In this document: one piece after another, positions 4,378-27,871 of the stretch
How positions within the stretch are numbered: position 1 is the stretch's first letter
How the letters are laid out: every line of letters begins with the position of its first letter
Assembly (NCBI GenBank): GCA_963971425.1
Contig: OZ020522.1
Coordinates: 1,524,168-1,588,167 of the forward strand
Direction: 5' to 3'
Source: Bryoerythrophyllum caledonicum
Lineage: Eukaryota; Streptophyta; Bryopsida; Pottiales; Pottiaceae
DNA length: 64,000 bases
Position numbers and translations under genes: made by a program
Notes under the pieces: model-generated
Database searches by the model: none
The model's input: only the letters and a program-made list of their open reading frames with translations
Told to the model about the DNA's origin: nothing

Positions 4378-5350
4378 TATCCATTCAGATCAGAGTTCAC
4401 CTCCTACAGGATAAACTCAAAGGCTTTCCCGAAGCTGAGACTGGAGCCACATCACCCACCCCAACAACCAATGCCCGCAACTCCCCCTTCCACATCAGCA
4501 CCCCCCTTCAAAGCTGGAACCAACGCCCGCCAGATCCTCCTCTTCCTTCTTACCCGCATCTCTCATCCATTCTCCGTCCTTTTCCATCGCTCCCGCCGCC
4601 GCGATCCCGCGACATTCATCCAAAACAACACAACCTCCGTCCAAAAGATTGCCTCATTCATCCATCAAACTCCGTACATTCTAGTAACGGTTCTTCGTTC
4701 TGTACCTGGAGTTGGTACCGAGCCTAAAAGGTACATTTGGGGGACGGGGATCTAGGAAAAGGAGGGATTTGGTGATGGTGACTGGGTTTGGGGTTGAGTG
4801 ACTTTGGAGTGAAGTGTGTATTGAGCCTGAGCTATGGAGTTCTAGGGCATGACGAGGGCGAGGGCGAGTCCGGTGCGTGGAGGCGGATGATTGGTTCGGA
4901 TTCCGGAGTTTCTTCAGGCAATCGTTAGTTTTTCCTCGTTTCAACGACTGCTTTCATGCTTAATTTTGCGCCTGTGGTTGGGGTTTGGGTTTTTCCATAA
5001 GAGAGTGTTGTTGTCGTTGTTGTTGTTGTCGTTGTTGTTGTTGCAGGATTCTTCCCGGGTTTTGTTCGGAATTTCATGAGAATATGCGGCGGAGCTTTGT
5101 TGATGGCATTTAAAGGAATTTCCAGGGCGAGTTTTGGCTATGGTTGACGTAATTTTGACGGTGTGTAGGTTTGCGTGGTTGTGAAGGAAGCAGTTGTGTG
5201 AAGAGGTGTTTGCTGTTTTAATCTGGTGGTGGAGGAGAATTTAGAACGATTGAGGTGATTGAATTGCGGGAGTGTCAGGATCTTGAGAGGAAGAAGGCGG
5301 AAGAGAAAAGAGGTTGTAACATGTAGCGGTGGTGGCGGGCGTTCGTGAAG
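4378..5350 (+). promoter_or_regulatory. Probable promoter and long 5' leader of the PP2-A10-like gene
   Basis: From about 4440 the composition becomes GC- and CT-rich (4440-4640), as in a plant core promoter or leader. Several short upstream open frames precede the start codon. A TTG/GTC trinucleotide run lies at 5007-5045 and ends in a plausible acceptor (TTGTTGCAG), so a 5' UTR intron is possible. The exact transcription start cannot be read from sequence alone. Confidence 0.35.
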
Positions 5351-6994
5351 ATGTTTACAATTACCCGGCGCAGGAGGAACGTCCTTCTTGCGTGCGGGGC
5401 TGTTGCAGCAGGTGGCTATGTGACGTACAGGGTGTACCAGTCGCGGAAGCGGATTCGCGTGTTTCTCTTCTTCGAGTCGTTCTCGACTCTTCTTGAGGTT
5501 CTTGCTGCGGGGAGCGATTCGTTCGCGCTCGTTTTGGCCGATCTTCGAAGTTTTCTTGTTTCGGAAGTGGATGAGGTGCCGCGATCGCTGAAGCAGCTGA
5601 TGAAACTCGCTCGTTCGCCTGAGGCGCAGGATAGCATATCTGCTGTGACGGCCGCTATTAGCCGTGGCCTTCTCGCGACGTTCACCGATGGCGGGCCTGT
5701 TGCCCCGAGCATGGAGCGGCCTTGGAGGTTGCAGTCGTTTCGGAGCCCGTTATCGAGTTCTAAGGCACTTGGAAATTTCGAGGAGTCAAAAGTGATCAAG
5801 GATACTCATGCTTTGGAAGGAGGCGCATCGAGCTCTGTTGATGACAGAGCTTTATTCCCGGATTTTGACGAGGAATTCGGTAGGGAATGTGATGGAGTAC
5901 TGGATGTTGACGCTTGGACCAATGCTGGAAGTGCGTTGGGCGGTTTCAAGGCTCAGGTCGATTCGTCCATTGTAAGAGGTACGAAGGAAGCTTTGCAAGC
6001 AGGGCTGGGTGTTGACAACAACTCTGAAGCTGATATGCATTCTGGAAAACGGAATGGCAAAGGAGAGTTGGTGGACAGGCTGGCTGATAAACTCTTTTCT
6101 GAATCTGGTAAGGGCTTTGCCTCCGCCGTGGTGGCCTCTGCCTCTCGAAGTTTTGTGATCTCTCTTGTAGAGCACATGAACTCTCCCAATACTTCGGAGG
6201 TGGACAGTAAAGGTGGAGTCGTGAAGGGGTTGATTGCATTTGCAAGAAGCGACGATGGCAAAGCAATGCTGACGGATTGGATTCAGACTTTTGTGGGAAC
6301 TGCTGTATCGGTGTATCTGGACCGAACGAAGGATATTAATACTTTTGATGAATTTGCTGTTACTTTGGAGAATCCGGAACACAGAGACGCCATAACTGAT
6401 CTCTTGAGCACTGTTTGCGAAACGTCGACGTCTAGTTTCGTCCGTACCTCGCATGAGGTTTTGACATCAAATCCTAGCAGCTCAAAGCAGATTCTGACCT
6501 CAAAGGCAGTCGCTCCCTCGACAGACTTGGGTGATATGTTTCACGACACCGAAGATTCAGAAGTGTTCTACGACATGGGAGAGCAGGAGCCCATATCTCC
6601 AAGCCATCCCCCAGTCAAATGGAAAGGGAAGACCATTATCGGGAGGAGCGAACCAGCTTCAACGAACTACATCGAACAAATTTCGAACGTGCTTGCCGTT
6701 CCCAGCAACCGGAAGCTGATACTGGATATTGCAGGAACGATGACTTCTTCAGCTGTTCGGTCGACGATTGATGTTTCCTTAAGTAAAGTTTCAGCCGCCT
6801 TGGGTGGGAGGGACAAGGAGCCTGCTTCAAAAGATGAGGCTGTCCCCAGAAGGGCAGGCGTTGGTGAGAAGCTGCAGGCTGTTGGGGATGCAACCAAGGC
6901 AGCAATGGACAAATCAGTGGTGCTTATGACCATGTGCTTTGCCGTTTGTTTGCATTCTGTTGTGGGCGGGGTCAGAATGGTTCAGCCCTTCTAG
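5351..6994 (+). CDS. PHLOEM PROTEIN 2-LIKE A10-type protein
   Basis: This is a single-exon frame of 547 residues starting at ATG 5351; an in-frame GTG at 5345 is not needed. Residues about 9-29 form a short hydrophobic segment (LLACGAVAAGGYVTYRVY) after an RRRR patch, which fits an N-terminal membrane anchor. The body matches the plant family annotated as protein PHLOEM PROTEIN 2-LIKE A10. Examples are VPRSLKQLMKLARSPEAQDS near residue 77, LADKLFSESGKGFASAVVAS near 238, TFVGTAVSVYLDRT, and a C-terminal domain with NRKLILDIAGTMTSSAVRST. It ends in a second weakly hydrophobic stretch. The family is plant-specific and its biochemical role is not established; despite the name it need not be a lectin. 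The protein is longer than the seed-plant members I recall (roughly 400-470 residues) because of a linker around residues 385-430. Codon use is GC-rich and the frame shows no lesion. Confidence 0.85.
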   Translation: MFTITRRRRNVLLACGAVAAGGYVTYRVYQSRKRIRVFLFFESFSTLLEVLAAGSDSFALVLADLRSFLVSEVDEVPRSLKQLMKLARSPEAQDSISAVTAAISRGLLATFTDGGPVAPSMERPWRLQSFRSPLSSSKALGNFEESKVIKDTHALEGGASSSVDDRALFPDFDEEFGRECDGVLDVDAWTNAGSALGGFKAQVDSSIVRGTKEALQAGLGVDNNSEADMHSGKRNGKGELVDRLADKLFSESGKGFASAVVASASRSFVISLVEHMNSPNTSEVDSKGGVVKGLIAFARSDDGKAMLTDWIQTFVGTAVSVYLDRTKDINTFDEFAVTLENPEHRDAITDLLSTVCETSTSSFVRTSHEVLTSNPSSSKQILTSKAVAPSTDLGDMFHDTEDSEVFYDMGEQEPISPSHPPVKWKGKTIIGRSEPASTNYIEQISNVLAVPSNRKLILDIAGTMTSSAVRSTIDVSLSKVSAALGGRDKEPASKDEAVPRRAGVGEKLQAVGDATKAAMDKSVVLMTMCFAVCLHSVVGGVRMVQPF

Positions 6995-10800: not shown

Positions 10801-11012
10801 CGCAGCAGCAGCTGCGCAATCCGTAACACCGGCACAGTTTTTCAGCCCATAAAATTGCGCGACCCTCTCCCCGTAGAACAATGCTGAGGTCGGGGACTCC
10901 CCGAATCTCAAGCACTAAAAATCGGATCGCCGTGTTCTTCAGGCACGAGCGTTTCCCGGCAGAAGCTGGCAGGGCGCTGATCTGCCCACAGTCCCCGCGA
11001 GACCTGGCGGGA
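10801..11012 (-). promoter_or_regulatory. Remaining 5' leader or promoter of hyccin, next to the MULE
   Basis: About 210 GC-rich bases separate the hyccin ATG from the left terminal repeat of the large MULE. The frame just before the ATG is open for a few codons (an alanine run) but no better start is seen. Any promoter further out would now lie beyond 27.2 kb. Confidence 0.4.
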
Positions 11013-11382
11013 AGGATCTGGCTAATTCACCCCGACGAGCGTTGGCCCATGCCGCAGCCTCGTCAGGGTGGTTGCCTTCGGTCCCGACCCTCCTTCTCGG
11101 ACCTGGCCAGCCCAACCCGGTTTCCCCCCGCCCGCCCAGCCCGGTCTTCCTCCCGCCCGCGCATGTGCCCGGCCATCCCTGCCCAGCTCCTTCCTTTTTT
11201 CCCCTAGCCCGTCCTTCCCTTCACCGGGCAGCCCACGCGTCGTCAACCCTGACCGGCAGTAATGTAGCAGCCGAAAAATGGATCTTGACACCCTGCTGCT
11301 CCTGCCATAGCCGCCCTCCACATTGATGACAGTTTGGGGTTTGAACCATGCTCTTGCAGGCCAGGGAGAATGTTCGTGTATA
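11013..11382 (+). repeat. Left terminal inverted repeat of the large MULE
   Basis: Inverted match to 26834-27237, about nine-tenths identical by eye in the outer 80 bases, then with small insertions and deletions in the GC-rich core. Open frames reported here (for example a glycine/proline-rich frame on either strand) are by-products of the GC-rich repeat. Confidence 0.75.
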
Positions 11383-12257
11383 GGGATTGTCATTGGAGTG
11401 CAACAAGGATATTGAACTTGCCATCGACATTCTTGATTGGAGGTTTTTGTGTTGCTTTGTTTTCTATACATCTGTGAAGAGTTGCGTGAGAGCATGGTAC
11501 TAGAGCGTGGTTTAGGGAACGTCAATCATGCTGGAATGGAGTGCGGTTTCTTGCATGCCTCCAAGTTGTTTTTTTGAAAGGCAAGAAGTTGATGCTGAAT
11601 CTAGACCATATCTTAGTGTGCATTAAGTTCCATGGCTATTTTGGCGAAGTTGCTTACAATGAATAGCTTCCGTGCAGATTTCCGTGTTTGGATCTTGGAT
11701 TTCGGTTCGTTCGGATCTTGATTTCCGTTTCGTTTGATTAAGATCTATATAATGTGCGGTTTAGTGTTTCAATAGAACCAAATATAGATCTAGAACTTGA
11801 ACCCGACCTTGCAGGGCAGGACTACACAGATATCACTTCCTTAGAGAATCATTTGTGGCCCGCTGGAATTGCCTTCGACGACTTAGGCCACCCCCTCTGT
11901 TGTGAGCACGACTACTGTCATGTAGATGACCCGTGCCAATTTCCCTCCGCCATTGTAGGACGTGGCCTACACGGCCGTGAAGCTCATCACTGCCTGTCGA
12001 ATGTTCTCCACCTTCGCATGGCCAGTCAGCGTGTACCAGAATACGTGTCTGATTCTGTGCCCTGCCTACCTGACTTCAAATGCCCTACTCTGGCTGCCAC
12101 TGACATACCCCTACAATCTTTCAAGAAGCCCTGGTCAAGGAATATTTTGGAGAAGGTTCGCGATAGTGTACAGAGGCCACCACTCGGACCGTTCGATCGC
12201 GCAGATCTTCAATGGAGCGATAAAGTGAACCAAGGGGGAGGGAAATAAACCACTAAG
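11383..12257 (+). other. MULE interior upstream of the transposase, possible fragmentary gene
   Basis: A 164-residue open frame runs 11754-12248, and an overlapping frame from 11962 encodes LITACRMFSTFAWPVSVYQN and FAIVYRGHHSDRSIAQIF. I do not recognise either as a family, and neither has a clear start or splice sites. This could be transposase leader sequence or a captured gene scrap. The 11390-11750 part shows nothing. Confidence 0.25.
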
Positions 12258-14684
12258 ATGGCCACAATATTATGGGACAGATTGGAGGATTTCCTTGAGG
12301 ATGAGATGAGTACTCGACAATATCATTGTACCTTTCTTGAGGACAGCAATCACAATTTCAAGAGCAACAGAAAGGACATTGAGAGAACACAAACCCGGTC
12401 TGAATCTGCCATACAAGAAATCAAGTAAGTATTCCTTGCCAACAATTACTGATTTATATTACATGTCCCCTTAATAGAGATCAATCCTCACATTCCCGGC
12501 TTTCATTTCTTCAGGTTTACTTGGCAATTTGGTCCGGAGGACCCCTCAAGCCAGTATAAAGCTGAAGTTCAAAGAGTATTTGCCCACACTGTGACGGGCC
12601 GGCAGAAGTCCACCAATCGAAACAAAACTATCTAGAGGGCGAAGAAGATCATTCAACAGTCTGTGATGGCTGCGACGGGGAAAGGCAAGGGTACGAAACG
12701 CAGTCGGTCACAATTAGAGAGCACATCCGAGAAGGAAATTGATTTGAACGTTGAGGCCATCGAAGAGGACAATGAAGTGCAGGCCATGATCCAGGAGGCC
12801 CAGGCCAAGCTTCTGGATGCACTGAAAACTATTGACGAAGCCGCTACACCTAGGCGCAAGACCCGAGTTGGCATAATACAGGCAGGTATGTCAATCAAAC
12901 GAGGTTGTCAATGTTGCTTCGTTGCAAAACAACTTTTGCTCGATCCAACCTTGTGCACGATACACTTCCATTGTATGGACCACATCAACAAGGAGGGGAA
13001 CCCCTGCCATGGTCTAGATTTTGGTGGCCAGAGGGCAGGGTTATCCGGTCGACTTTCACAGGCTACGAAGGACTGGATTCAGAGCTCCCTGCAAAGTGGA
13101 AAGTCTCCAGCTCAAGTGATGGCTGACCACAAAGCGAAGGTTCTTCGTTGTGCTACATTAAACTTACCTACGACTAGGGATACGTTTGTCATGCCTAGGG
13201 ATGTCTACAACATTGCTAAAACCCTTGCTAAGGAACTTTGGGAGAAGCAGCCTCGAGATGCCCTTAGTGTTCGAATGTGGAAAGAGGAGAATCCTGAGTC
13301 ATTCTACCATTATAACGAATATGGGAACATAGATTTGAATGAGCCTCCAGCAAATGACGACCCCTTCTCCATCGCCATCCAAACTGAGTGGCAGCTCCAA
13401 ATGATGGTAAGACACGGAAATAGACATGCACTTGGGATAGATGCCACCTTCGGTACAAATCTGCCTAAGGTACCCAATCACCTAAACCTTGCCTGCATGA
13501 TGCTGCATCTACATTTCTGGTTGCTCTTCTAACTATTTGATTGTGTCTGGCCTGCAGTACCCTTTGTACACAGTCATGGTTTTTGACGAGTGGGAAGAAG
13601 GTATTCCAGTGGCATTCACAATTCAGGGAAAGAGCCGTCAAGAGGACATTGTTGTTTGGCTCAAGAAGCTTAGAGATCGATGTATCACGGTACAACCAGG
13701 TTGGCAGCCTAATGTTGTCGTCACCGACAATGACCAGGCTAAACTGAATGCCATCAGGTATCATGCTGCCCTTCGTGACATGGCTTAAATATTGCAGCCC
13801 GAACACGCATATTACTGGCCATAGATCTAAACTTGCCGGGATTTCTGTGTAGGGAGGTGTGGCTTGAACGGGATGGCGTTGACGGGGTTAAGATCTTTCT
13901 TTGCCTATGGCATGTACGCAAGGCCTGGCTTGAAAATGCTATGCAGAAAATCAAAGCCAACTACCTACGTACTGACATTTTGAAGGACTATGCCGATTTA
14001 ATGTACGGGAATGGAATTCTGGAGGGCGAATCTGCAGTGCAGAATTCTAGGGCCAGGTTCCAGCAGCTGCGGAATAAGTATGGAGACGGGGCCAAGACTT
14101 TCTTCAACTATTTCGAAAAGACTTGGATTCCAAAGCTAGAAATGTGGGTTACAGGATTCAGATCTGTTCCCCATGCAAATCAGGATACGAACGCCACTGT
14201 GGAGAGCTATCATGCTATTTTGAAGTCCATATTGTCCACGTCAAGGCAGAAGTTTAACGGCCGTCGCGTGGACTGGTTGATACACCACTTGGTCAAGGAT
14301 GTCCTCACTCACTACTGGTACGCGGTTCAGTGCAAGCTCTTCGGTTTTATCAAGAACGGGAAGGCGGAAGGTATGGTGGCCAGCGTTGTCATCCGAGCTA
14401 GGGAGATTCCAGACGGGCATGTCTTCGTAGACTTGGACCAAGACATAGCGTACGTGGCCAGTCAGACGAACTTCTCAATGGTGTGGGTGGTGGCAAGCCC
14501 TAACACAAACTGGGTTCGTTGTACGTGTCCTTTGGGGATGCGGGGGAACATTTGCAAACACGTTGTGAAGGTGTTTAAGCTTATCAATGTCGGAGTGCAA
14601 GACGCGGCCATTGTACGGTATGCTAGAACTCTATGGGGGTACCATTGTTGTGGGAGGAATTCCTGCTGGCGTGGAACCTCCTAA
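12258..14684 (+). pseudogene. MULE transposase with SWIM zinc finger (one in-frame stop)
   Basis: Exons read 12258-12424, 12515-13469, 13558-13757 and 13853 to about 14684; all introns are GT-AG (88-95 bases) and phases agree. The only lesion seen is a TAG at 12633-12635, after which the frame stays open. The DDE catalytic triad of MULE transposases is visible: Asp at 13440 (GIDATFGTN), Asp at 13726 (VVVTDNDQ) and Glu at 14202 (NATVESYHAILK). FLCLWHVRKAW lies between the last two. Near 14520-14565 the SWIM finger CTCPLGMRGNICKHV supplies CxC...CxH ligands. These enzymes cut and paste Mutator-like elements by acting on the terminal repeats. A further frame to 15045 with a coiled-coil look (RADLHDFAIQNVDLRGHLLA) may be a spliced C-terminal exon. 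The N-terminal region before residue 130 is not recognised. Confidence 0.8.
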
Positions 14685-14699
14685 GGCGGATGGAGTGCC

Positions 14700-15045
14700 C
14701 GGCGCAACACAGACCCAAGGTAAAAATGCCAGAGACATTGACACATCGAATCCACAAAAACAATTGGCGGATATCACCTCCACTAGGGCTGATCTCCATG
14801 ACTTTGCGATTCAGAACGTAGACTTGCGGGGACATTTGTTGGCTGGCCTCAATGAATTGAAGGGCAAGGTCTCAAACTTGAAGGCGAGAGCTGATGCTGG
14901 CATCCTACATCCAGCATCTCAACCGTCGTTTCATTTAAACGAGGGGAATAACACCAAAAGGCGATTCAAAGCATGTAGTGAATTAGGTAGGCATAAGTCT
15001 GGATCATCCATGAGGCCAAGTAGACGGCAAACAGGTGGCTCATAG
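14700..15045 (+). other. Possible extra C-terminal exon of the transposase
   Basis: The frame from about 14690 to the stop at 15045 contains a leucine-heptad stretch (HLLAGLNELKGKVSNLKARA) and a basic tail. It would join the transposase if an intron removed the region just after the SWIM finger. Donor candidates exist near 14617 and 14636, but I cannot decide between them. Confidence 0.3.
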
Positions 15046-15977
15046 GAGGTTCTTAATTTTTCCATAACTATACAGTAGTTCTGGCATTTCCTGCCCAGTT
15101 TTTTGGATTTCTACTGTTCCATATATACCTTCTGTACGTTGATTTCTTATGTCTATAGGAAGTTTGATGTTCATTAAACTAATGTCGTTTTGGACTAAAC
15201 TCTGAAATGGGATCACCCCTCCCCATCTTTTTTTTCAATTTCAGTTTAATTTTATGAAGGATAGCTCCAATATTTCAATAATTACATTTTATATAATTAT
15301 TTCTCTCCATGAAAATTTCTCCATGATGGAGAAATTTTCATATTCTCCCTTTCTTCCATATTCTCCCTCTCACTCTATTCCTTATTCAGCTTTTTTTAGA
15401 CAATTTGATGTCATTTTTCTTCTCTGTCTCATGTTTGTTTTATTTGAAAATATTATCTTATTTAATTCATGTTTAAATTCTGAATTCTTTTTCTGGATTA
15501 TCGGTTTTTTTAATATTTAATAACGTTTTGTAAATCTACAATCGTGTGTAAACATTTGATTCCTTCTTTTCTTCTTTCCGGTATTAGTTGTCCCTTGCGA
15601 TTTCCCTCCTCCTTTTATCATTTAGTCCAACATTAATGCTTTACATGTTCCTAAGTGGGACCAGATAGTTTAGGCCATGTTCAAGGCAATGTTCCCGGCC
15701 TTCCATCCAACCATAGGCCGTCCATCATATATAAAATGCATTGAGAGATTATTACTACTCATTGTAAAAAGTTCATGTTTTAACAATGGTGTGGGAAATA
15801 ATTTAAACCGTAAATACATAGCGATAATATAACGTAGAGTAAGTCCCGTTTACGTACTCTGAACGGGAATCATAAGTACACCTACACTAGAACACACGTA
15901 CGCAGCAAAACAAAAACATCAACCTCCATACTTACTAAGCCTAATCAAAACAAAAATTGGACGAACTATCCAGACTT
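15046..15977. other. AT-rich spacer between the convergent MULE genes
   Basis: This spacer separates the 3' end of the transposase from the 3' end of the minus-strand accessory gene. It has no coding signal. It contains a perfect inverted repeat at 15309-15341. Confidence 0.5.
15309..15341. repeat. Perfect 33-base palindrome (16-base arms, 1-base centre)
   Basis: The left arm ATGAAAATTTCTCCAT and the right arm ATGGAGAAATTTTCAT are exact complements around a single G. It lies in the spacer where transcripts of the two convergent genes would end, so a transcript 3' hairpin or a cruciform is possible. Function is unknown. Confidence 0.7.
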
Positions 15978-17880
15978 CTACGCAGCCTGATATGTTGTCA
16001 CAACGGCAAGGCCTTCTCCATCCATGGAGACATCGTCTAGAACCGTGGCCAGGCCAACCGCGGAGGTCACCTCCAGAGGAACTGCGGGAAGGACTGCAGG
16101 TGGCAACGCGATGTGGCCTGCAGATGCCAGGTCAACCGTGGAGTACGCAACAACGGAAGTCACTTTTGATGTGCCCACGGCAGTACTGGGCATGCCCGCC
16201 ACCAATGTCACTCCGGAGGGTAACTGTGCTTCCTCCGCACGCCCAAAACCTGCAGCCAAAATGTCTTTGGCTACGACCAAGGCCTCCGCGAACGAGTCAT
16301 TGGCCGCCCCGAATGAGCTGGGTAGCTGAGCTTCCATGGAGCCCATGAATTCCGCCTGGTCACCATCTACAATGATCTTGTCCAACTTCGCACGGCAAGC
16401 TGCAACACTAGCCACCATCAGATCTCAGGACACAAGCTGCAACCGCTCCTGGATACCTGGTGGCCACACACCCATAGCCTCTACAGAACCTACAGCATAG
16501 CCCAAAGAGATATTCTCACGCAAGAGGAGAACATGGTCAAACCTAGGACTCTCCAATGGCAACACAATCGACCCATCCTTGACCCACAACTTGCGAAGCT
16601 CATCGGCCATGTTCGCGTGCAAGATGTCACAGCACGCGAACACAAACGTTGCCCGCAGCCAGTGAACATATTCACTACGCAGCTCGGAGTTGATGTCTCG
16701 CATCTCGAGCGTATCTCGAAAAGCGCTGAAATGTGGTCCGGTGGTATCTATATCGGGAAAATAAATCTTCCCCATGCGGACGAGTTCACGCATGGCTGTG
16801 AACACCTGAGACATTGGTCCATCCACACTTCCGTCTGCCGGTAATCCACGCACAGGACACGTCATGGGCACCCTGTAGCCTCTGACATTGCACGAATGCA
16901 ACTTCAGGACGCGTGCAAATGGTGGCGGTGTGACATCCAGCTTGCCGCCCCGCTCCTCCTCTAACATCCATGATGTTAACACATCAAACTCCACGTCAGA
17001 ATGCGAAAAGGGACGCTCTATGACGGGTGGAATCGGTAGCATACTAAAAACACAAAAAAATGGAGACCATGCCCACTAAGAACTCTCCAAGTTGATGGCC
17101 ACGCGATGATCATATGCGCCAATGCAATGAGAAATATATGCACTCCTCTCTTCTGCGATCTGTGCAACCTTCGCCTTCCAATGTTGGAGGCGGTCTTCGT
17201 AGGTAAACACCTCATCGTGGTGGAGGTAGAACTTCTCGATCTCCTCCTCCATCAAGGCCTCTCTCTGTCGCATGAAAACATCTTTACAAGCATCGGTGGC
17301 ATCCATGTCACGGGTAGAAATCACGTCCTGCAATATCCAAATTGGACACATGCACCGTTATCAATCACAATTGTTATGTGTGGTACAAAAATAGAAATAG
17401 ACGTGGCCAACAACTTACAAGGAGTTGTAAGTCGCAGTGGACTGCTCCCCAAGCGCGGAAAAGTAACTTTGGCAATCGTCCATTGCCGTGCATTGCCCGC
17501 AGCGTGGATACGAGCCTCTCCAATTCGTTCAACTCCGCCAATGGAATGACATCACCTATCAACTTCACAAGCAAGTATAATCCAGGAGCCGCTGGAAGGG
17601 CATCTGGCTCCAAATCTGGATTAACATCCGGAAATTTGAACTTGGCTTCTCCTATGATCTTTGCGAGCTCCCGGGCCCTCGAATCGCTTGCCCGCCAATC
17701 TGGAACTTCGCGCTGAAGGCCATCTTCGGTTTGGCCACAGTGGGGGCTGTCCGGGGCAGGTCCCCCAAGGCCTGGACTGTCTTGCGTTGAGCTGTCCGGC
17801 ATAGGCCCGACATATTCTGGACTGCTTGGCGGGGGGGGTGCCCTCCGGAACCCGACGTTGTCGTGATGCGATACAGTTCA
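15978..17880 (-). pseudogene. Degenerate accessory gene of the MULE, convergent to the transposase
   Basis: Reading leftward, a frame starts MNCIASRQRRVPEG at 17880 and shifts frame at an eight-G run (17831-17838). It then continues through ELAKIIGEAKFKFPDVNPDL to a clear donor at 17419/17418. The next exon begins at 17327 (DVISTRDMDATDACKDVF). The frame from 17042 (MLPIPPVIERPFSHSDVEFD) runs to a TGA at 16425-16427 and stays open in the same frame to 15978. The one doubtful junction is near 17043-17076, where the best-fitting intron would be only 33 bases. I recognise no domain. A gene convergent with the transposase is the layout of mudrB in maize MuDR, but no sequence similarity to MURB is claimed. 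Confidence 0.5.
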
Positions 17881-19271
17881 TGATATAAAAAATAAGATTG
17901 AGAAGAAAAATGGAGAATTTAGCTGGTTAAGGTAATTGTGGAGAATAAACGGCTTTTCCTCAATTACCCTACCAGGCCAGAAGCTTATCTTAGAGGATCT
18001 TTACTACATCTTGTCATTAGCTCAGGGCTTAGGAGCGTCCACCAGCTGGATTTGCTGCTGATTCCGGCAGTCCCCTGACCACGCGAGCGCCAGCCGCTCT
18101 GACAAGCCAAGGAATCGAGGTCGGACCGGCGAGGTGCAACGAAAAGCTTAGCCAGCCGAACTAAGCCGCGGTCGATGGCAGTACGTGGGCTCTATTGATA
18201 TTTAAGCTATTCTCTTACTCTTCTGAGATCAAAAAACTTAAACAGAGTGCTATGATATTATAGTTTGTAGTAGAAATAAGAAATGTTTAGTTTGGGGATT
18301 AGTTTAGAGGGAGAAATATAGTGCCAACTTGTAGTAGAGTTATAGGTTAGAAAATAAAAGTCAAGCTAGGCTTATGTGGGAAGATTTAGATAAGATTTGG
18401 AGGTAAATAGACTTTGGCGTCCAAGGGTGAGTCAAAAGGAAGGCAACAGAGGCATGGGCTGATTTAGGCCCTTGACTTTCCTTCCCTCCTCCCTCGGCCA
18501 AAGCCTTCTCCATTTAGTATAAAAGACGCTCAGGTTTTCTTGTGTGACAGGTACGATTTTGTGGATTTTGATGTCAGTTTTTAGAGTGATGTAGAACTTG
18601 TTAATAGCTTTTAACAAGGTATCACACGCTCCAATCGAAGTTATGTAGAAGCTGTGGTGTGGATTTGAATAAAAGAGGGTACTACTGCCATGAATTTTCG
18701 AGAGGAGTAACTTTGATTCCATGTAGAAACTTGTATACAAAGAGTGAGATAGTGAATCTTTGTACGTATAGTGGTGATTGTATTAGCTTTCTAATGAGCT
18801 ATTACAAGCTCAAATCCGAGTTGTTATGGAGCCATGGCACTTGATCTATTGAAGGGGTGTTCTCGGAAGAGCGGTTTTCATTCCACAAATTTAAAGCAAA
18901 GACTTTGAGTAACCATAGTTCATTATGATTAGAGCCAGTAGAGTTGAAACTTTTGTCAGTTGTTTATCTTGTTGTTAGCTTTTCAAAAAGCTATTGCATG
19001 TGTTTATATAGTTAGTTTAGAAGTAAAAGAACCCGATTTAGTGGGAAGGGGTTCAGCTGCCCATGTTAATACAACTTCATGTTTGACTACTTGCAAGGGT
19101 TTGTCAAGATGAACCAAAAACTCGACTTTCTATGTAGATCAAGACTTTGGTCATCATTGTAGATTAATGGAATTCATATTTGTGGCATCTTCGTTTTCTT
19201 TTTACTGAAACTGGTAGCAGCCAAGAACCCAGCGTTTTCCCAAGGCAAATTCTTTCTCCACGACAGCATGT
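17881..19271. repeat. Non-coding interior with low-copy repeat tracts
   Basis: No gene is visible. From about 18540 to 19000 short phrases such as TTTCTAATGAGCTATTAC recur in varied form. They resemble, on the opposite strand, the diverged repeats at 24.9-25.5 kb. This suggests pieces of one repeat family on both sides of the nested CACTA element. Confidence 0.35.
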
Positions 19272-20578
19272 CTAAAGAGGATCAGCGGCGCTAAACTGAA
19301 GTAGAAGTGGAGCACTGGCTAGATCACTGGGAGAACCGTGTGCAGGAGCTTCGGCATGATGGCTGGAATGGAGAGGATGAGCTCCTCCGGGTCGGGTTGT
19401 GGCCTCCGGAGGCACGCGTTGGGGTGGCCTACATCGGAGATTCCGCTTGGACATTGAGGGTGTGACTGTGGCCGCCGCAGAAGCACGCTGTTGCTTGGCA
19501 GCCCTTGGTAGAGTTCGATGCTGGCTGGCTTCTTCACGGCTGTCTCCCTTCCGCCTCGGTCCTCTCCTTTTTGGCTCAGAACTCTGCCCTGCACTCTGGG
19601 AGGCAGCCATGAGATCCGCAACCGACATACCGGCCATGGCTACATTCGAGAAAGTGGAGTGAATCCCCGGTCTTCGTTTCCGGTTTGGCCCATCGTCCTC
19701 CCTAGAGCTAAGGAGCTCTATTGGATTTGAAAGTGGTAGAAGGGCCGAGCTGGTACATGTGCCCTTCGTCCACTTCGCTGTCTTGCCTGTCATCACAAAA
19801 GGAATGGGAATACAATACTTCTGGAAAACATCCCGAGCATCTCTATTGCCATCGACTCCACGTGAAGGGTAGATCTTCAAGTCCCCATCTTGCTCGTAGT
19901 CGAAGTCCTTGCAGAGCCGCTCCTGCCGGTGATATCCAAGTGTCGATGAAGTCCTGGCCACAATACCGGCAAAAGAAAGGGACCTTCGCCCGCGCTCTGG
20001 AGCCTCCCTCCCATGATTTCTCGCGCCTCCAAAGGGTGTTGATCTCTACCATCAACAACTCGTACTCAGAGATGGTGAATGCGCTACGGTTTGGAATGCA
20101 GCGTATCCACTGACTCTGGCATACAATAACCCCTTCTTCACCGAATTTGCCCCCCACCATAAGCTACACATGGGACGGCCTCTATTAGAATAGGGCAGGC
20201 CAGATTTGGTGCAAATATTAAATGAAGGGCAGGACTACACGTACCTGGGGAACAATACCAGGTTCGCATTGTTTGATGTAGTCCCGCCAATAAGCACTCA
20301 GAGGGGCCTCATCCAATATCGTGGCCCTGGCCCTGAGCATCCTCAATTCGTCGATGGCATCCTGAATTCGTAGATTCCGTAAGTCTGGGACACCCGGGTC
20401 TCTCACCTAAGTCCACGCCACAATCAAATATGCGTAAGGCAGGCCAGTACAATAGAAACATGGAATAAGTTGGTCTAAATAGATCTTGGCCTATGTATGA
20501 ATTGATTGAATGAAACATCCAAAAGAAGTACATAATGTGGCCACAGACTCTCACCAAGCTATCAATCACAGTGGCCAT
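19272..20578 (-). pseudogene. Second accessory reading frame of the MULE (frameshifted)
   Basis: Exons read 20578-20555 (MATVIDSL), 20406-20245 (VRDPGVPDLRNLRIQDAIDE and following) and from 20163 (LMVGGKFGEEG) leftward, with GT-AG junctions that keep phase. Near 19935 the frame shifts: CRYCGQDFIDTW is followed in another frame by GYHRQERLCKDFDYEQDGDL and a proline/arginine-rich tail ending at 19272. The CxxC and a later Cys hint at a small zinc-binding unit. The starting MAT resembles the transposase N-terminus (MATILWDRLEDFL), but similarity stops there. It may be a separate gene or the 5' part of the frame at 15978-17880. Function is not recognised. Confidence 0.45.
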
Positions 20579-20989
20579 GATGATGAAGGTAATACTCTTC
20601 AAAAGCCAGATCTGAAATCCTAAAACCCTAAACCGTACACCCTACCTATGAATTAACTCTAAAATACCTTGGCCTACCCTAAATCCTGAACTAAGTTTAA
20701 CTTTTGCAATGTTACTATGGCCGTGGGAGGTGCATGCTGGCCTGCGTCATCTAGTGTGGCATGGTGATGGTGGAGCAACCAACTGTTGAAATGGCGTTGA
20801 TGCAAAAACTAGCCTGCTGCTACTAAGGGCACAGTAGGTTTGACAGCACTCATCAATCACAAGAAGGGTTTAAAAAAATATATATATATCGAACATGGAA
20901 AAGGTCAGATGGGAGAATTATAAGGGACTGATCGAAAAAATCACTAAACTCTTGAGTGGAGAAAGAAAAGACGCTTACCTGAAACACGC

Positions 20990-21103
20990 CCAGCTCGCGT
21001 CCAAGTCGCGCTCTCCCGCGCCCACCTCGCGCTCTGCTCGTTCTCCCGCATCTACGCGCGCTATGCTCAAACCCTGATCGCGCTCCGATCAAACCCAGCT
21101 CGC
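20990..21103 (+). repeat. GC-rich minisatellite, part 1 (left of the CACTA insertion)
   Basis: Irregular repeats of CGCGCTCTCCCGCGCCCA and CTCAAACCCTGATCGCGCTC. The same array resumes immediately after the CACTA element at 24129 and again at 26245-26690. Confidence 0.6.
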
Positions 21104-24100
21104 CACTATAAGAAACCCCTGTTTTTTGTTATGTCCTTAATCATGTCAGCGTGTTTTTTTGATGTCTTGGAGCTAGCCAGTAATGTCCCCGTGAACGTGA
21201 GGATGTCCACGAGTCAATAATGAACAGTGGAGGTGGGAGGGTCCCGAAACGCGCGTGCGAAATAGGAGACGCGACGATGTCTCCACCAACGCGCCCGTCT
21301 CCGAGGACGTCATCGAGGACATCTTGGGTGATGCAAAACTGCCACGCTGGCAGCGGACAAGCGTTTCACCTGAGGTAAGAATGTCGAAGTTACTGTTGTG
21401 CAAGGTAGAAAGCAGTCCAACGTTAAAAAAAATAGCGAAACGGGCAGCGGTATGCAAGAGGAGAAACAAAAGGGCACGAGCCTTATAAAACAAGATTTTT
21501 TTTTTAAAAATATATAAAAAATTAAATATATAAAATTGAAGAATGTTCTGATTATATTTATTAACTTTGATCCTCTGAAATTTCTGATTTGTCCACTTCG
21601 TATCAAAATGGTTTCCAAAATAAAATTTAATTTTAAATATCAAAAATACAAAATATTAATTAATATTATAATAATATTTTATAAAAACTGATTATTCTGT
21701 AATTAAAGCGGACATATTAAATTCAGTACTGTATATTTAAATATTAAATAATATTTATTAATTAATATAATATTAAAATACCACTTTTCTATCAAAACCA
21801 GAATTATAAGGAATTTAGGGTGATTTTGTAAAGTCCTTGGTGGCTTACCCATGCGGACATATTATATATTTTGTAGTTTACAGCACTTCATCTACATGGC
21901 AAACACAATTCCATGTCAGACAAGGTGACACGTCATTTTGTGTATAGGTCCACGTCACTTGAGACATCCAATTGAAGATGTCTCGAGTAACGTCTACATG
22001 TCTTTGAGGACATCCCACAGAGACGTCTCTGAAAACATCAGCAGTGTTTGGCAAAACATTGACATGTCCTGGAAAACATCATCGTGTCTTGCAAAACATA
22101 ACCATCAAGTAGGATGAATTTCGTCAAGTTCATTGGATGAATAGAGGCGGCGAGGGTTAGCTGCTGCAGCCATAGTTAGGTCATGAGACCTTTAAGTAGA
22201 ATTTGAGGTTGCACAAAGCTCACTTTGGCCTTCATTTCTCCAAGTAGTTAGAATTTAGAATGTAGAGGTTGGAGTTTTAGAGTGTAGACTGAGTTTACAA
22301 GTTAGAATGTTAAAGTTTAGAGTGTAGAGGTTAGAGTTTTAGAATTTGAGAGTGTATGGTTTAGATGTTAAAGTTTGAGAGTTTGAGAGTGTTAGAGTTT
22401 AGAGGGTAGAGGTTAAAGTTATATAGTATAGAGTTTAGAAGTTAGAAGTTAGACTTTGAGAGTGTAGAGTTTAGAGTGTAGAGGCAGCAAAGAAGAAATG
22501 AAGAAAGAAGCGTGCAGGTAGGCGAGTAATTGCACAATCTAATGCTGGCCCAAATGAGACTTAGGTGAGCCACTGCATGATGTATGAACAACACGGGAAA
22601 TCTAGAAGACGTCTTCAAAGACGTCCAATCAAAGGCGTCGACGTTTCCATGAGCGTCTGAGATGTTTGCTAGAACATCCCAAGAGACGTCTTGTCACATG
22701 ATGCAGGTTGTATTGCACTTTGTGGGGCATGTTGAACGTTCACACAGTGCTGTGATTAGAACTAACAGTTTATGGACGTTGTTCTACTAACTAGATTTAT
22801 AGCAATTTCCTTCTTTTGTAAATCCCTTGTTTAACCGCATGCGTTGTTGGCCTGTTGAACATGTACAGTGTTGGACATGCAATGTCCTGTGAGCGACATA
22901 TAGACGTGACCATGTTGTAGAAGACGTATGCCGCAACACTTAGGAAACACAGGGACGTCTTTTGAAACATCCCCTTGTCTATGGAGACATTCCTCGACAT
23001 GTTCACAAACGCGGCAATGTTTTAGGCTACGATGTCGTGACACTTTAGCGACATGGGGATGTTTTATGAGACGTCTACTTTTCAAGGGTTCAGTTTCTTT
23101 CTCGGATCAGATAGACGTGCGGATGTATTTTCAAACGTCTCGGTCTACGTGATGATGTCTTCAGTAACACCTATGACATGGCGAGTGGATGTCTTTCGCG
23201 ACGTCTACATGTCGTCGTTGATGTCTTGGTAACACGTCACATATGACGCACAGATGTTTTCAGGGACTATTATAGGGTCACGATGACGTATTTCATAACA
23301 TCCATAAATTTGAAGTAGATGTTTTCAGAGACGTCCTGAAGAACATTATGACGTCATCATATAGACGTCCGCGCGTTCACAACGACGTCCACATAGAGAG
23401 TACTCGTGTCTTCTATAGCACGTCTCGTATCCTCCAAAACATCATCAAATACACGCCGTGAACAATACCATGTCTCAGGAGATGTCACGTCAGACACGCA
23501 TAAATTTTATGAGACATCCGCGATGACACCTATAACCACGTACATGGATAAGCAACGTACCTCAGAACTTGGTCATGTCTATGGACATGTCCTGTGCAAC
23601 ATGGCAATGTTCGACAAAACGAACATCCAGAGCTAGTACGCGTCACTGTAGACATCCACGTCGACATCTCCACGTCAATCTGGGACGTTTTGTAAAACGC
23701 AGCCATGTTTCTAATGACGTCCCACCAAACATGAATCTGAAAAAAAAACGGCCCAAATCTGTGCTGACATGGCACGCCACGTCACTCTTTTTCCGGGTCC
23801 ACATCAGAGGCCACGTGGGTCCACGTTACATGCCACGTCAGATGCCACGTCACCAATGGAGAGGATGAATTTCTCGGCCATGTGGCACTACCTGTCATCC
23901 TGCCGCTTAGGTGTCATCTACGTGGCGCCCAGTTGGCACCATTTCCAGCCTCCCAAAATCTCCGAAAATCGTCCCTGTCACAGGGATGTCCTCACGTTTT
24001 TTGTGATGTCCCCACGCGTTATAGCGTGTTACACGCGTTGGTACGTCAGAGGGATGTAAATTCGGATGTCTACATGTCTCCTGGGACATGATTCAGGACG

Positions 24101-24128
24101 TGACAAAAAACACGGGTTTCTTATAGTG
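21104..24128. mobile_element. Nested CACTA (En/Spm-type) element, 3025 bases, target duplication CGC
   Basis: The left end is CACTATAAGAAACCCCTGTT and the right end is the inverted form (AACACGGGTTTCTTATAGTG on the plus strand). The flanks are CGC on both sides, a 3-base duplication as expected for CACTA elements. The interior has no transposase frame. From about 21940 to 24090 it is packed with short motifs of the forms GACGTCT, GATGTC and GACATGTC on both strands, like the subterminal arrays bound by En/Spm-type proteins. A stretch at 22250-22480 repeats TTTAGAGTGTAGAGGTT. It would need a transposase in trans. Confidence 0.8.
21940..24090. repeat. Dense array of GACGTC/GACATGTC-like motifs inside the CACTA element
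   Basis: Dozens of short units related to RACRTCT occur every 15-30 bases on both strands, for example GAGACGTCTCTGAAAACATC, TTTTATGAGACGTCTAC and GTTTTCAGAGACGTCC. The units are not tandem copies of fixed length. Such arrays normally lie near CACTA ends, but here they fill about two thirds of the element. Confidence 0.6.
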
Positions 24129-24360
24129 CGCGCTCCGTTCAAACCTTGGTCGCGCTCCCTTGAAACCCTGGTCGCATTCCCTGCTCGCACCCTGGTCGCG
24201 CCCTACTCGCGCTCTCTGGTCGCGCTGCCTACTCGTAGTCTCTCGCGCCCAGCTCAAACCCTAAACCGCGCCCAACTCGCACTCTCGCGCGCCCACCTTG
24301 CACCCTACTTGCGCTCTCCCGCGCCCAACTCGCGCTCTGCTTGCTCTCCCGCTGTCGTGT
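24129..24360 (+). repeat. GC-rich minisatellite, part 2 (right of the CACTA insertion)
   Basis: Continuation of the CGCGCTC/CAAACCCTGGTCGC array interrupted by the CACTA insertion. Confidence 0.6.
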
Positions 24361-24434
24361 AGAGAGGGGAGCGCTTTGAGAATACGCGAGGTATCTAGCT
24401 GCGACTTCGTATAGTCTGCTACGGAGTTCTGTCA

Positions 24435-24480
24435 AATCTTGTGGTCTTCGGTCTTCAGTCTTCAGTCTTCAGTCTTCAAA
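24435..24480 (+). repeat. Heptanucleotide microsatellite (GTCTTCA)n
   Basis: About four tandem units of GTCTTCA. Confidence 0.7.
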
Positions 24481-25850
24481 CTCCTCCCCGTTGGCCTATC
24501 CTGTGGTGGTTCTAAAGGGTTAAGGGTAAAGGTGGGTGATAAGAAACCACGGCCTCGGACGGGTAAAACGGGACGGCCAGACCACAAGCTGAAACCGTCC
24601 GAAAGATTGGCTCCTAAAATTCAAACCCACGGTGACCAGCAAACGTGCCTCACCGGTGGGAACGACATAAACACGACCGTGTGGGCAATTAACCCCACTT
24701 CGCCGCAACAAAGTTTACAAGAACAGAATTGAAATACAACTAGCCTCCAAAACTGGCTTGGAATCACAAAAAAAGAAATCGGACCACAAGCCACAACACA
24801 CTTGTCCCCATCTTCTCTTCTCTTCAATCCTCAAGTCTTCAATTCTTCCATCCTTCAACTCCAAAGTCTTCAAGTGTTCAAAAACACTAAGAAACTCAAA
24901 AGAAGTGTTCAAAAACACAATGGAAAAGTTTCACCAAGGCTGTAACCTTCAAACAAGTGACACCGATGACTCAAAATTTCAAATACTAAGTGTAATAGCT
25001 CTCTGGAAAGCTAATTCAGACAACTAACACTCCTCCAAATTTCAAGTCAATCTAAACTACTGTCCGAAAGATATACGAGTTCAAAGTTCTGCCCCTCCAG
25101 ATATTCAATCGCTCATAACTTCTTCTTTAAAACTCCAAATCTCAATTGTATTAACTTTTTGAAGAGCTATGACCATGGTTTACGCACCTTCCAATTCTCA
25201 AACAATTCCAAACTACTGTCCAAAAGTTATGGACAATCAAAGTTCTGCCTACCCCTATTCATTCAAATCTCTATAACTTCTTGCTCACAACTCCAAATCT
25301 CAATTGTAATATCTTTCTATAAAGCTAAGATAGAGATGCACAGTCCCTCAAAATCTCAAATCAAATTGAGAACTACAAAAAAAGTTGTGGCTCCTCGAAA
25401 CCTCTGCCCCTCAATGGATGGCCTCGGGTTTTCACAGAATTAAAACCTCAATAACTTTTTCTCTACAACTCCGAATTCAAATTTTAAAACGAGTATGGAA
25501 AGCTCTTGAAACAAGGAACAAGATCACAAATTTTCAATTCCATAGCATTCAAGCTCAACGAGTTACACACAGTCAAAGTTCTGCTCCAAACCCTTGCTCT
25601 CTCACCCGCACACACACACACACTCACTAAGGAATATCTTTCCCAACTTTTGCACCTCAAGTGGACGTCGGCACTCCAGCCCATGTCACCCTATCCAAAG
25701 TACCCCACAAGGTACTTTGCTACTTTCTTATCCTTTCCACTTTCAACCACATAAATCCCCTAGTCTTTTATTTATTGGAAGACAAAAAATTTAGACCTTC
25801 CAACCAACAAGATAAGTAAAATAAAAAAAATAACTAAAAAATAAATAAAT
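24481..25850. repeat. Diverged tandem repeats and a CA microsatellite
   Basis: Phrases such as AACTCCAAATCTCAATTGTA recur (25131-25150 and 25289-25308, 158 bases apart), as do ACTACTGTCC and CAAAGTTCTGCC. This points to a diverged repeat of about 150-180 bases from 24.9 to 25.5 kb. A short (CA)n run lies at 25609-25624. An edge CTAAAGGGTTAA at about 24512-24523 looks like one end of a TTAA-type element with no partner found. No gene is seen. Confidence 0.4.
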
Positions 25851-25899
25851 AAAAACTTATCGTAAGGTAGCTGATGGAACGGACGTATAAAGGTGTTGA

Positions 25900-26100
25900 T
25901 TCGCACAACCTGATCGCCAAGTCGTGGACTTGGTTGGCTGGAAATGTCGTGGTCAGTGGCCGCCGCCAGTCCGGGTTCGAACCCGATCGAGCCCGTCGAG
26001 TGGTTGAGCGGCCCACGGCTTGGCTCGCTAGTGAGGCAGGAAAAATACCAGTCAACCCGCTACCTACCCCCCTGAGCAGTGACAAGAGCGGTGCAGCACC
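25900..26100 (+). repeat. Possible tRNA-derived SINE
   Basis: A perfect RNA polymerase III B box, GGTTCGAACCC, lies at 25974-25984. A box A-like segment (TCGCCAAGTCGTGG) starts near 25914, about 60 bases upstream. The sequence between does not fold as a full tRNA by eye. No poly-A tail or target duplication was found. Confidence 0.35.
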
Positions 26101-26244
26101 TACATGCTAACACTTGCCCAAATCCTCAAACCGTGGTTCTCACCGCGACCAAACCTTTTTATCCCAACTCCTTACTTATTAAAATCCACACATATAAAGA
26201 CTAATACTTGTATGTACATGATGGAAGAATTTCCATCAGGACAC

Positions 26245-26690
26245 CGCACCTACGCGCGCTCCGATCAAACCCTGCTCGCGCTATGGTCGCACCCTGCTCT
26301 CGCTCTCTGGTCGCGCTCCCTGCTCGCAGTCTCTCGCGCCCAGGTCGCACTCTCCCGCGCCCAGCTCAAACCCTAAACTGCGCCCACCTCGCACCCACCT
26401 CGCGCTCTCGCACGCCCAGCTCGTGCTCTGGTCGCTTTCCCGCACCAGCGCGCGTTGTGCTCAAACCCTGATTGCGCTCCGCTCAAACCCTGCTCGCGCC
26501 ATGGTCGCGCCCTGCTCGCGCTCTCTGGTCGCGGTGTTTGGTCGCGACTACTAGCTCTCCCGCGCTCTACTCACGCTCAGCTTGCCCTCTTGTCGCGCCC
26601 TACTGGCGGTCTCACGCGCCCTGCTCGCAATTTGCCTAAACTCTCTCGCGGTCTGCCGCGCCCTGCTAGCGGTTTGTCGCGCCCTAATCC
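26245..26690 (+). repeat. GC-rich minisatellite, part 3
   Basis: A further array of CTCGCGCTCT, GGTCGCGCCCTGCTCGCG and AGCTCAAACCCT units near the right end of the MULE. Frames through it are artefacts of the repeat. Confidence 0.6.
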
Positions 26691-26810
26691 TCACCAAAAT
26701 TCACACAACCAAACCCTAATCCTCACCAAAACTCACACAACCAAACCCTAACCCTCACCAAAACTCACACAAAAATCAAACCCTAACCCTCACCAACTTC
26801 TCATACAACC
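26690..26810 (+). repeat. Short tandem repeat with telomere-like AAACCCTAA motifs
   Basis: Three to four units of about 32 bases, each with AAACCCTAA followed by TCCTCACC or CCCTCACC and AAAACTCACACAA. The telomere-like heptamer is not itself in long tandem array, so this is a minisatellite or telobox cluster and not a telomere. Confidence 0.6.
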
Positions 26811-26833
26811 ATCCCAGTTCGCAGAACACCCAA

Positions 26834-27237
26834 TAACATATTCTCTGGCCTGCAAGAGCATGGTTCAAACCCCAAACTGTCATTAATGTCGAGGGCGGCT
26901 ATGGCAGGAGCGGCAGGGTGTCAAGATCCATCTTTTGGCTGCTATATTACTGCCGGTCAGGGTTGACGACGCGTGGGCCGCCCGGTGAAGGGAAGGACGG
27001 GCTGGGGAAAAAAAGGAAGGAGCTGGGTAGGGACGGCCGGGCTGGGGAAAAAAATGAAGGAGCTGGGCAGGGACGGCCGGGTACATGCGCGGGCGGGAAG
27101 AAGACCAGGCTGGGTCCGGCGGGGGGAAACGGGACTGGGCTGGCCGGGTCCGAGAAGGAGGGTCGGGGCCGAAGGCAACCACCTTGACAAGGCTACGACA
27201 TGGGCCAACGCTTGTCGGGGTGAATTAGCCAAATCCT
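26834..27237 (-). repeat. Right terminal inverted repeat of the large MULE
   Basis: Inverted partner of 11013-11382; it is slightly longer because a GGCCGGGCTGGGGAAAAAA-like unit is duplicated around 27030. Confidence 0.75.
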
Positions 27238-27871
27238 GGCTTCCCGAAGTCCCCCGGCCCCTGTCTGAAGTCCCCCCGTTCCCTCGCTCCCCGGTTTCCA
27301 TTGTGCCGTTCCCCTTTCGCTACTTTCGGGTTGGATTCTCATCCCTGTCCTCGCGCGCCGCCACTCCTCCTTCTCTGCGCTCCTGTCGACGTTGCGCCAC
27401 CTGGTCTCCGCCCGCTTGCTCGCAGCTCCGCATCGACATTCTCGTCGCTGCGCAGGGACGTCGCCCCGCGGTGCTAGGTGCCCACGCGAAATTTCCCTTG
27501 GACTTGAATTTTCGCGTTGTATTTTTAACGGATGGCGTGGTAGATGTAGACTCTTTTGCCGGCCTGCGGACGTTTCTAATGAATCGCGCGGAGGAGCAGT
27601 AGTTTTGGAGCTACCCTGAGTCGTCCAACTACATTCTAGGGGTTTTGAGCTACGAGTCCGAGGTGGCGCGACCCAACTTTCGAGCGTCTCTATATCGTAT
27701 CTGAACGAGTTATGAGCTGCAGCTGCAGCCCGGGAAGGTCAATTTTGAGCGCCCGGCATCGGTGCCGAGTGCTACATGTTGTTGCCTGCAGGTCTGGAGG
27801 TTTCTGCTTGGTATAAATCAGACTTTTATTATCCACCAGTTTCGTGTTTTCCAGGGACACCACTCAATTAA
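27238..27871. other. GC-rich flank, possibly the displaced hyccin promoter
   Basis: From 27240 to about 27620 the sequence is CpG- and CT-rich like a plant gene leader, with an open frame to 27602 that has no recognisable domain. It lies directly outside the right MULE repeat, where the original upstream region of hyccin would be if the element inserted there. From 27620 to 27867 nothing is seen. Confidence 0.3.

Follow-up and report, generated by a model that had tools for sequence, protein, structure and literature searches.

The stretch of DNA analysed here, called the window in the following, comprises 64,000 nucleotides of the moss Bryoerythrophyllum caledonicum (contig OZ020522.1), and between positions 11014 and 27236 it contains a Mutator-like element (MULE). 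The window element is a defective copy of a MULE of the cut-and-paste type with two convergent genes, a rightward transposase gene and a leftward accessory gene, and stops as well as frameshifts are found in both. Features of the MULE superfamily are present, namely a transposase domain (in an exon of a sister copy), long inverted repeats and 9-bp target duplications (in the sister copies). It is almost certain that the family represented here is a two-gene MULE whose accessory gene is maintained by selection.

The two ends had been described as inverted partners in a first reading made from the sequence alone, and this proved right. In a local alignment, 11008-11374 pairs with 27246-26835 (score 534) with a single 40-base length difference and gapless arms of 208, 125 and 105 nt, and the edges 11014 and 27236, taken from sister copies, delimit repeats of 361 and 402 bp. 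The outer edge GGATCTGGCTAATTCACC is common to the sister copies, and the left-end sequence has at least 41 matches across the genome, which was searched as 437 Mb in 894 contigs. Nine complete sister copies were fetched with both ends, and their 9-bp target duplications agree at nine bases in four copies, at eight in another four and at seven in one, which indicates that the element moves in the manner of a MULE. The window copy itself is without a clear duplication, its flanks TGGCGGGAA (11005-11013) and TGGCTTCCC (27237-27245) having only four of nine bases in common. The final five bases of these flanks are mutually reverse complementary, through chance or a rearrangement. A size of 16 kb had also been proposed for the element, which holds for the window copy (16.2 kb) but not for the family, as seven of the nine complete sisters measure 9.3-11.0 kb (the others being C1n with 2.4 kb and C8 with 19.5 kb). 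The excess of the window copy over an element of about 10 kb is due to insertions of ~1.4 kb and 3.0 kb (CACTA-like) and to a stretch of ~1.9 kb that is probably a further insertion. In the nested CACTA-like element the inverted ends are 91% complementary and a 3-bp duplication, CGC, is present; its interior is without a long reading frame and contains many short GACGTC/ACATC-like repeats. An Rfam scan of the window at gathering scores gave no match.

The rightward transposase gene is real and runs on to 15042, beyond position 14684, where the sequence-only reading had ended it. Its second to fourth exons were placed by tblastn with the exons of one sister copy, and the peptide stretch of the first exon is also open in a sister copy (C7a, open reading frame 840-1526). 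The sequence GIDATFG in exon 12519-13463 is what we take to be the first catalytic Asp motif. The Pfam family MULE (PF10551) matches a sister exon (L015:2583-2867) with 28.0 bits at a cut-off of 27.6, and the SWIM finger scores 18.1 bits in the window and 18.4 bits in L015, both below the cut-off of 19.6, and 20.3 bits, above it, in the relative L048. DUF5575_C on the transposase stayed below the Pfam cut-off, and the last transposase exon had no match in the PDB at E<=10.

The leftward frames are real as well, but where several degenerate spliced pieces had been proposed, they are parts of one accessory gene that converges with the transposase gene. This gene looks fragmented in the window because a stretch of ~1.4 kb splits its linker-bearing exon (Table 1). 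In C7a, one of the sister copies, the zinc finger and the linker share one frame of 503 aa, and a first-exon peptide lies 5' of the zinc-finger exon in ten copies (C11a, C11b, C12a, C14a, C14b, C1b, C3, C7a, C8 and the window). That the leftward frames are chance reading frames in repeat DNA is a view that the stops and frameshifts of the window copy could invite. It is contradicted by long open frames in sister copies (460 and 503 aa) and divergent copies (379 and 539 aa), by at least 150 matches for one exon and by dN/dS values below 1, i.e. purifying selection, and was rejected as virtually untenable.

Table 1. Coordinates of the element's parts in the window.
Feature	Position	Strand	Remarks
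Left terminal inverted repeat	11014..11374	+	361 bp, starts GGATCTGGCTAATTCACC
First transposase exon, Met start	12258..12426	+	End set by eye at GTAAGT site
Transposase exon with first catalytic Asp region	12519..13463	+	In-frame stop 12633-12635
Middle transposase exon	13558..13785	+	Counterpart in sister L015 matches Pfam MULE
Last transposase exon, SWIM-type zinc finger	13842..15042	+	Frame shifts ~14638-14654
Accessory exon with domain B	15981..17357	-	In-frame stops 17076-17078, 16425-16427
Accessory gene, end of variable linker	17446..17772	-	
Insertion splitting the accessory gene	17859..19265	.	~1.4 kb; absent from 4/4 sister copies compared
Accessory C2HC zinc-finger exon and linker start	19272..20163	-	Conserved part 19632-20163; frame shifts ~19942-19973
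Accessory first exon, MATVIDSLVRVCGH...	20537..20578	-	Splice end not fixed
Nested CACTA-like element	21104..24128	.	3.0 kb, 44-bp inverted ends starting CACTATAAGAAAC
Remnant of right-hand noncoding tandem arrays	24129..24352	.	CTCGCGC-rich
Further insertion (probable)	24353..26243	.	~1.9 kb, no match with sister C12a
Remainder of right-hand noncoding tandem arrays	26244..26683	.	
Right terminal inverted repeat	26835..27236	-	402 bp

The accessory protein is tripartite: a C2HC zinc finger is followed by a linker of variable sequence and this by the conserved domain B. The earlier statement that these frames carry no recognisable motif thus has to be given up, all the more as an Ulp1 exon is found in one lineage. 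The zinc finger follows the pattern CX2C-X12-H-X5-C, in which C65, C68, H81 and C87 are invariant in five of five aligned families. Its profile matches the C2H2 fingers of PRDM9 in the PDB (E 6.9e-10), and single zinc-finger sequences are below the Pfam C2H2 cut-off. The linker varies and is made of 30-bp tandem repeats in family fC4. Domain B comprises ~340 aa with 38 invariant columns across seven sequences; it corresponds to no Pfam family in scans at E<=1 (seven members also at E<=10), and its profile has no match in the PDB at E<=10. A Colicin label that appeared in the accessory scans (E 0.02, below the cut-off) was taken as chance. Two further searches used collections that are not intended for plants: the domain-B alignment gave 32 pattern matches in viral contigs and the zinc-finger alignment 52 in bacterial and archaeal genomes, none of which was confirmed. 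Among the open-access papers listed for MULE accessory genes, mosses and ULP1, no description of such a family was found. These comparisons support the suggestion that the leftward frames represent a new class of MULE accessory proteins, here the zinc-finger/domain-B family.

Ratios of nonsynonymous to synonymous substitution (dN/dS) were calculated by the Nei-Gojobori method; as the pairs share history, the values are descriptive, and dS is saturated in most comparisons between deeper families. Among 11 family copies, the median dN/dS is 0.48 for domain B and 0.35 for the zinc finger, with values below 1 in all 55 pairs for either part, and for the linker end it is 0.61 (below 1 in 41/55 pairs). 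The transposase exons gave medians of 0.49 (below 1 in 52/55 pairs) and 0.34 (66/66 pairs; 12 copies). Between the families fC7b and fC12, dN/dS is 0.25 for domain B, 0.20 for the zinc finger, and 0.27 and 0.32 for the transposase exons.

The relation of the two genes was followed through their linkage throughout the genome. The searches scored the best candidates (132 of 856, 150 of 202, 150 of 208 and 104 of 943), so that all counts are minimum values, and a locus without linkage may still have a transposase that was not listed. For the window's domain B there are at least 150 matches with 24-100% identity, which merge to 127 loci, and the transposase matches from two exons (132 and 106 listed) merge to 159 loci. 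Among the listed loci, 98 of the 127 accessory loci are found within 25 kb of a transposase match, and 97 of these 98 are tail-to-tail; within 10 kb, 88 are linked (87 tail-to-tail), and within 5 kb it is 79, all tail-to-tail. These numbers supersede a count with one transposase exon alone (76/127 linked). In 200 random placements, a mean of 2.3 loci was linked (maximum 10) and a mean of 0.52 was tail-to-tail (maximum 3). The sequence-only reading had proposed to look for accessory homologues beside the SWIM transposase, and this is where most of them lie. The zinc-finger part accompanies domain B at 95/127 loci, where it is located 5' of it, in the same orientation and at most 6 kb away. At five of six divergent loci, transposase exons are followed by domain B and the zinc finger on the opposite strand, and the sixth, on C9, has domain B and the linker end, with no transposase in the stretch read. 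Accessory and transposase identity fall together (Spearman 0.85, n=67; 0.46 among 41 loci with a domain-B identity below 70), where secondary pieces of already listed loci were left out, as they were in the count of zinc-finger parts and in the identity-band counts given below. The trees of both proteins recover as groups fC7b+fC12, fC202 together with these two, and fC4+fC7c+L052, and they disagree on where u1 joins, which has a support of 0.36 in the accessory tree. The accessory gene is inherited with the transposase through deep divergence.

As alternative to an accessory gene proper, the leftward gene could be a captured host passenger in the sense of Pack-MULE cargo. MULEs do capture genes, and family fC7b holds a fragment of a class I chitinase gene (PF00182, 95.3 bits, L055:765-1373, C7:5482701-5485700) between the accessory gene and the right end, which is probably captured host DNA. 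Also, an open 366-aa domain-B frame at C9:7847900 (L045, L049) has no transposase in the 12 kb around it; it is found within C9:7843000-7855000 beside B3-domain genes that look duplicated, and it may be a remnant or a domesticated accessory gene. However, the tail-to-tail order at 97/98 linked loci is kept down to ~24-30% identity, the dN/dS of the accessory gene is like that of the transposase, and the trees match for supported groups, and we consider a passenger origin very improbable.

The frequency of a tail-to-tail accessory gene differs with transposase identity. Among merged listed loci, it is found at 28/32 transposase loci with at least 75% identity, at 46/66 with 55-75% and at 4/32 with 40-55%. 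In the last band, L048 (383-2927; C4:20263500-20271500) contains transposase exons with open frames, lacks an accessory match and has a complex I 51-kDa gene after the exons; near-identical scores to this locus were obtained at C223, and L048 is possibly a domesticated transposase.

The most divergent accessory lineage includes L050, where a transposase with ~40% identity faces a domain B with 28% and a C48-like exon is located between them, and L051, where a zinc finger and domain B are accompanied by a C48 exon with 24.9 bits at a cut-off of 20.7. In both loci the Ulp1/C48 exon shares the strand of domain B and follows it on the 3' side, and this order and strand suggest that it is spliced to domain B. 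A C48 query found 23 loci in the genome, 12 with at least 91% and 11 with 38-40% identity, and at ten of the former 12 a second C48 locus (38-40%) is situated 7-13 kb off on the same strand. As, in addition, a second zinc-finger exon adjoins the first gene in u2, elements with two tandem accessory genes are suggested. Two tandem accessory genes are seen at L051+L054 (C7:2036800-2048500), where frames between them resemble a long interspersed nuclear element (a label given from a reading of the frames).

From these observations one could postulate that the accessory gene descends from an Ulp1-like protease module that ancestrally removed SUMO-type tags, and that the window family kept the targeting part and lost the protease. 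The position of the C48 exon in L050 and L051 and the number of C48 loci would agree with this, as would the KI-MULEs, which according to passages of PMC2528002 carry an ULP domain in reverse orientation. Yet there is no C48 match in the main-family copies searched, including the window family (best E 3.4), the splicing of C48 to domain B is deduced from order and strand, and the position of this lineage, on which the choice between gain and loss of C48 would turn, has a support of 0.36 in the accessory tree. Such a descent appears improbable.

The noncoding right end of the element is rich in tandem arrays. Their share of this end is 27-38% in the four sister copies without assembly gaps (C14a, C8, C11b, C1b) and 10-42% in four others that have such gaps; in the window copy, enlarged by its insertions, it is 8%, and the gene part of the element contains 0-6%. 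The heptamer CTCGCGC occurs 5-20 times in the right end of seven of nine copies, where a Markov expectation is 0.06-1.83. Family fC7b has different arrays at the same end.

Several known systems share parts of this architecture. With MuDR of maize the element has in common the long inverted ends, the 9-bp duplications (here in the sister copies) and a transposase gene that converges with a second gene. The accessory gene had been called mudrB-like, and this is shown as far as gene order goes, the convergent order being seen at nearly all linked loci. Points of difference from MuDR are the C2HC zinc finger with domain B in the accessory protein and the moss host. VANDAL elements of Arabidopsis have a second gene, VANC, in which conserved segments accompany a variable one that contains repeats, as well as noncoding tandem arrays. 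According to sections of PMC5735166 and PMC10398659, VANC proteins bind short motifs in the VANDAL arrays and remove methylation, and PMC13317346, in part of its text, describes Ulp1 joined to VANC in KIU genes, similar to the probable joining of Ulp1 to the accessory gene in some lineages here. In contrast to VANDAL, the element described here has long inverted ends, and the parallel is one of parts and layout, not of sequence. In KI-MULEs, ULP1 is the antisense second gene in the account of PMC2528002 (in part), and the L050/L051 lineage resembles them, KIU and other ULP1-MULEs in that its Ulp1 domain reads against the direction of the transposase. The same passages describe KI-MULEs as lacking terminal inverted repeats; the window family differs from them by its inverted ends and by the absence of an Ulp1 match. 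Other antisense second genes named in sections of PMC6446971 encode the plant mobile domain (PMD), in several plant groups, and MutB in Mutyl. PMD-bearing MULEs (Table 1 of that paper) have the antisense accessory gene beside a SWIM transposase, as here, but the accessory frames scanned against Pfam gave no PMD match. Mutyl of Yarrowia shares the antisense second gene, and a C2H2 zinc finger is listed for its group; its host is a fungus, and MutB is set beside our accessory protein by description, not by sequence.

The zinc finger and the co-inheritance with the transposase suggest that the protein acts on the DNA of its own element. In such a mechanism, the zinc finger would bind element DNA, with the tandem arrays of the noncoding end as the most likely target. 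Domain B, assisted in one lineage by the Ulp1-type protease, would keep the element transcribable and mobile. This could be achieved by countering host silencing or by regulating the element, as VANC does for VANDAL in Arabidopsis. Overall, a selected two-gene MULE with an accessory protein that acts on its own element's DNA is the explanation that we prefer, with a confidence just short of even. A VANC-like action in anti-silencing or regulation is proposed somewhat more tentatively, by analogy.

A cofactor function in transposition, in which the accessory protein joins the transposase at the ends and aids reinsertion, as proposed for mudrB and MutB, is nearly as likely as the anti-silencing or regulatory role. 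The convergent second gene, as in MuDR, the zinc finger and the tight co-inheritance with the transposase all fit it, and according to portions of PMC6446971, integration apparently requires mudrB, and MutB is an antisense product that binds DNA; the function of mudrB is still called unknown there. A mere end-binding cofactor would, however, not be expected to have the Ulp1 exon of one lineage, and a transposase clade of the same genome is without a detectable accessory gene.

The anti-silencing or regulatory role could be extended to an independent VANC-like anti-silencing system in mosses, formed by a MULE-borne zinc-finger family unrelated in sequence to VANC, which would read the fast-changing arrays of its own element and open chromatin, and which Ulp1 would have joined in one lineage, as it did in the KIU genes of Arabidopsis. 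We regard this as unlikely; if true, element-coded anti-silencing would have arisen at least two times in land plants, with the same parts.

Several points weigh against an accessory protein that acts on the element's DNA in a VANC-like manner. DUF1985 and DUF287, the domains named for VANC in sections of PMC5735166, were absent from the scanned accessory frames (Pfam, E<=1; seven members at E<=10). An AlphaFold2 prediction from the single sequence of the window's domain B (341 aa, with stops treated as residues) was too poor to be informative, with a mean pLDDT of 33.6. Next to the transposases L047 and L048 of the 40-55% band, 8.8 and 8.0 kb were read without an accessory match, and such a clade without a detectable accessory gene indicates that the protein is not needed by every relative. 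As to the arrays, CTCGCGC is missing from C11a and C14b, both with assembly gaps, and this core was picked after the arrays had been seen. The array unit of fC7b also contains CTCGCGC, and a difference in specificity between families is thus unsupported. Tandem arrays also arise without function. Finally, 29 of the 127 accessory loci have no listed transposase match within 25 kb. Two of them were read, of which C15:19637633 does have a tail-to-tail transposase (L052), and the other is the C9 locus described above. Although these 29 loci stayed unlinked, the homologues are not the ordinary host genes, never linked to the transposase, that the sequence-only reading had considered as the opposite outcome.

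MULE second genes are known mostly from flowering plants, and the table of such genes in PMC6446971 lists hosts among flowering plants, red algae, fungi, oomycetes and animals and names no bryophyte. The genome studied here offers natural contrasts, with elements that have the gene, lack it or have it together with a protease. These contrasts make the function of MULE accessory genes directly testable, in a lineage that includes the laboratory moss Physcomitrium. The proteins of two chlorophyll-binding genes of this genome were also compared with the PDB, and one of them (L057) comes closest to chain 9 of 7xqp and 8htu (315 and 314 bits), ahead of a large LHCI protein (9vfj, 278 bits). In passages of PMC10005731, 8HTU is the large photosystem I complex of Physcomitrium patens, with one Lhcb9, and chain 9 is presumably this Lhcb9, which agrees with a moss as host.

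Outside the element, an uninterrupted 555-aa frame without a Pfam family match is located on the forward strand of the window at 5327-6994. Its product is presumably similar to a plant PP2-A10-like protein.

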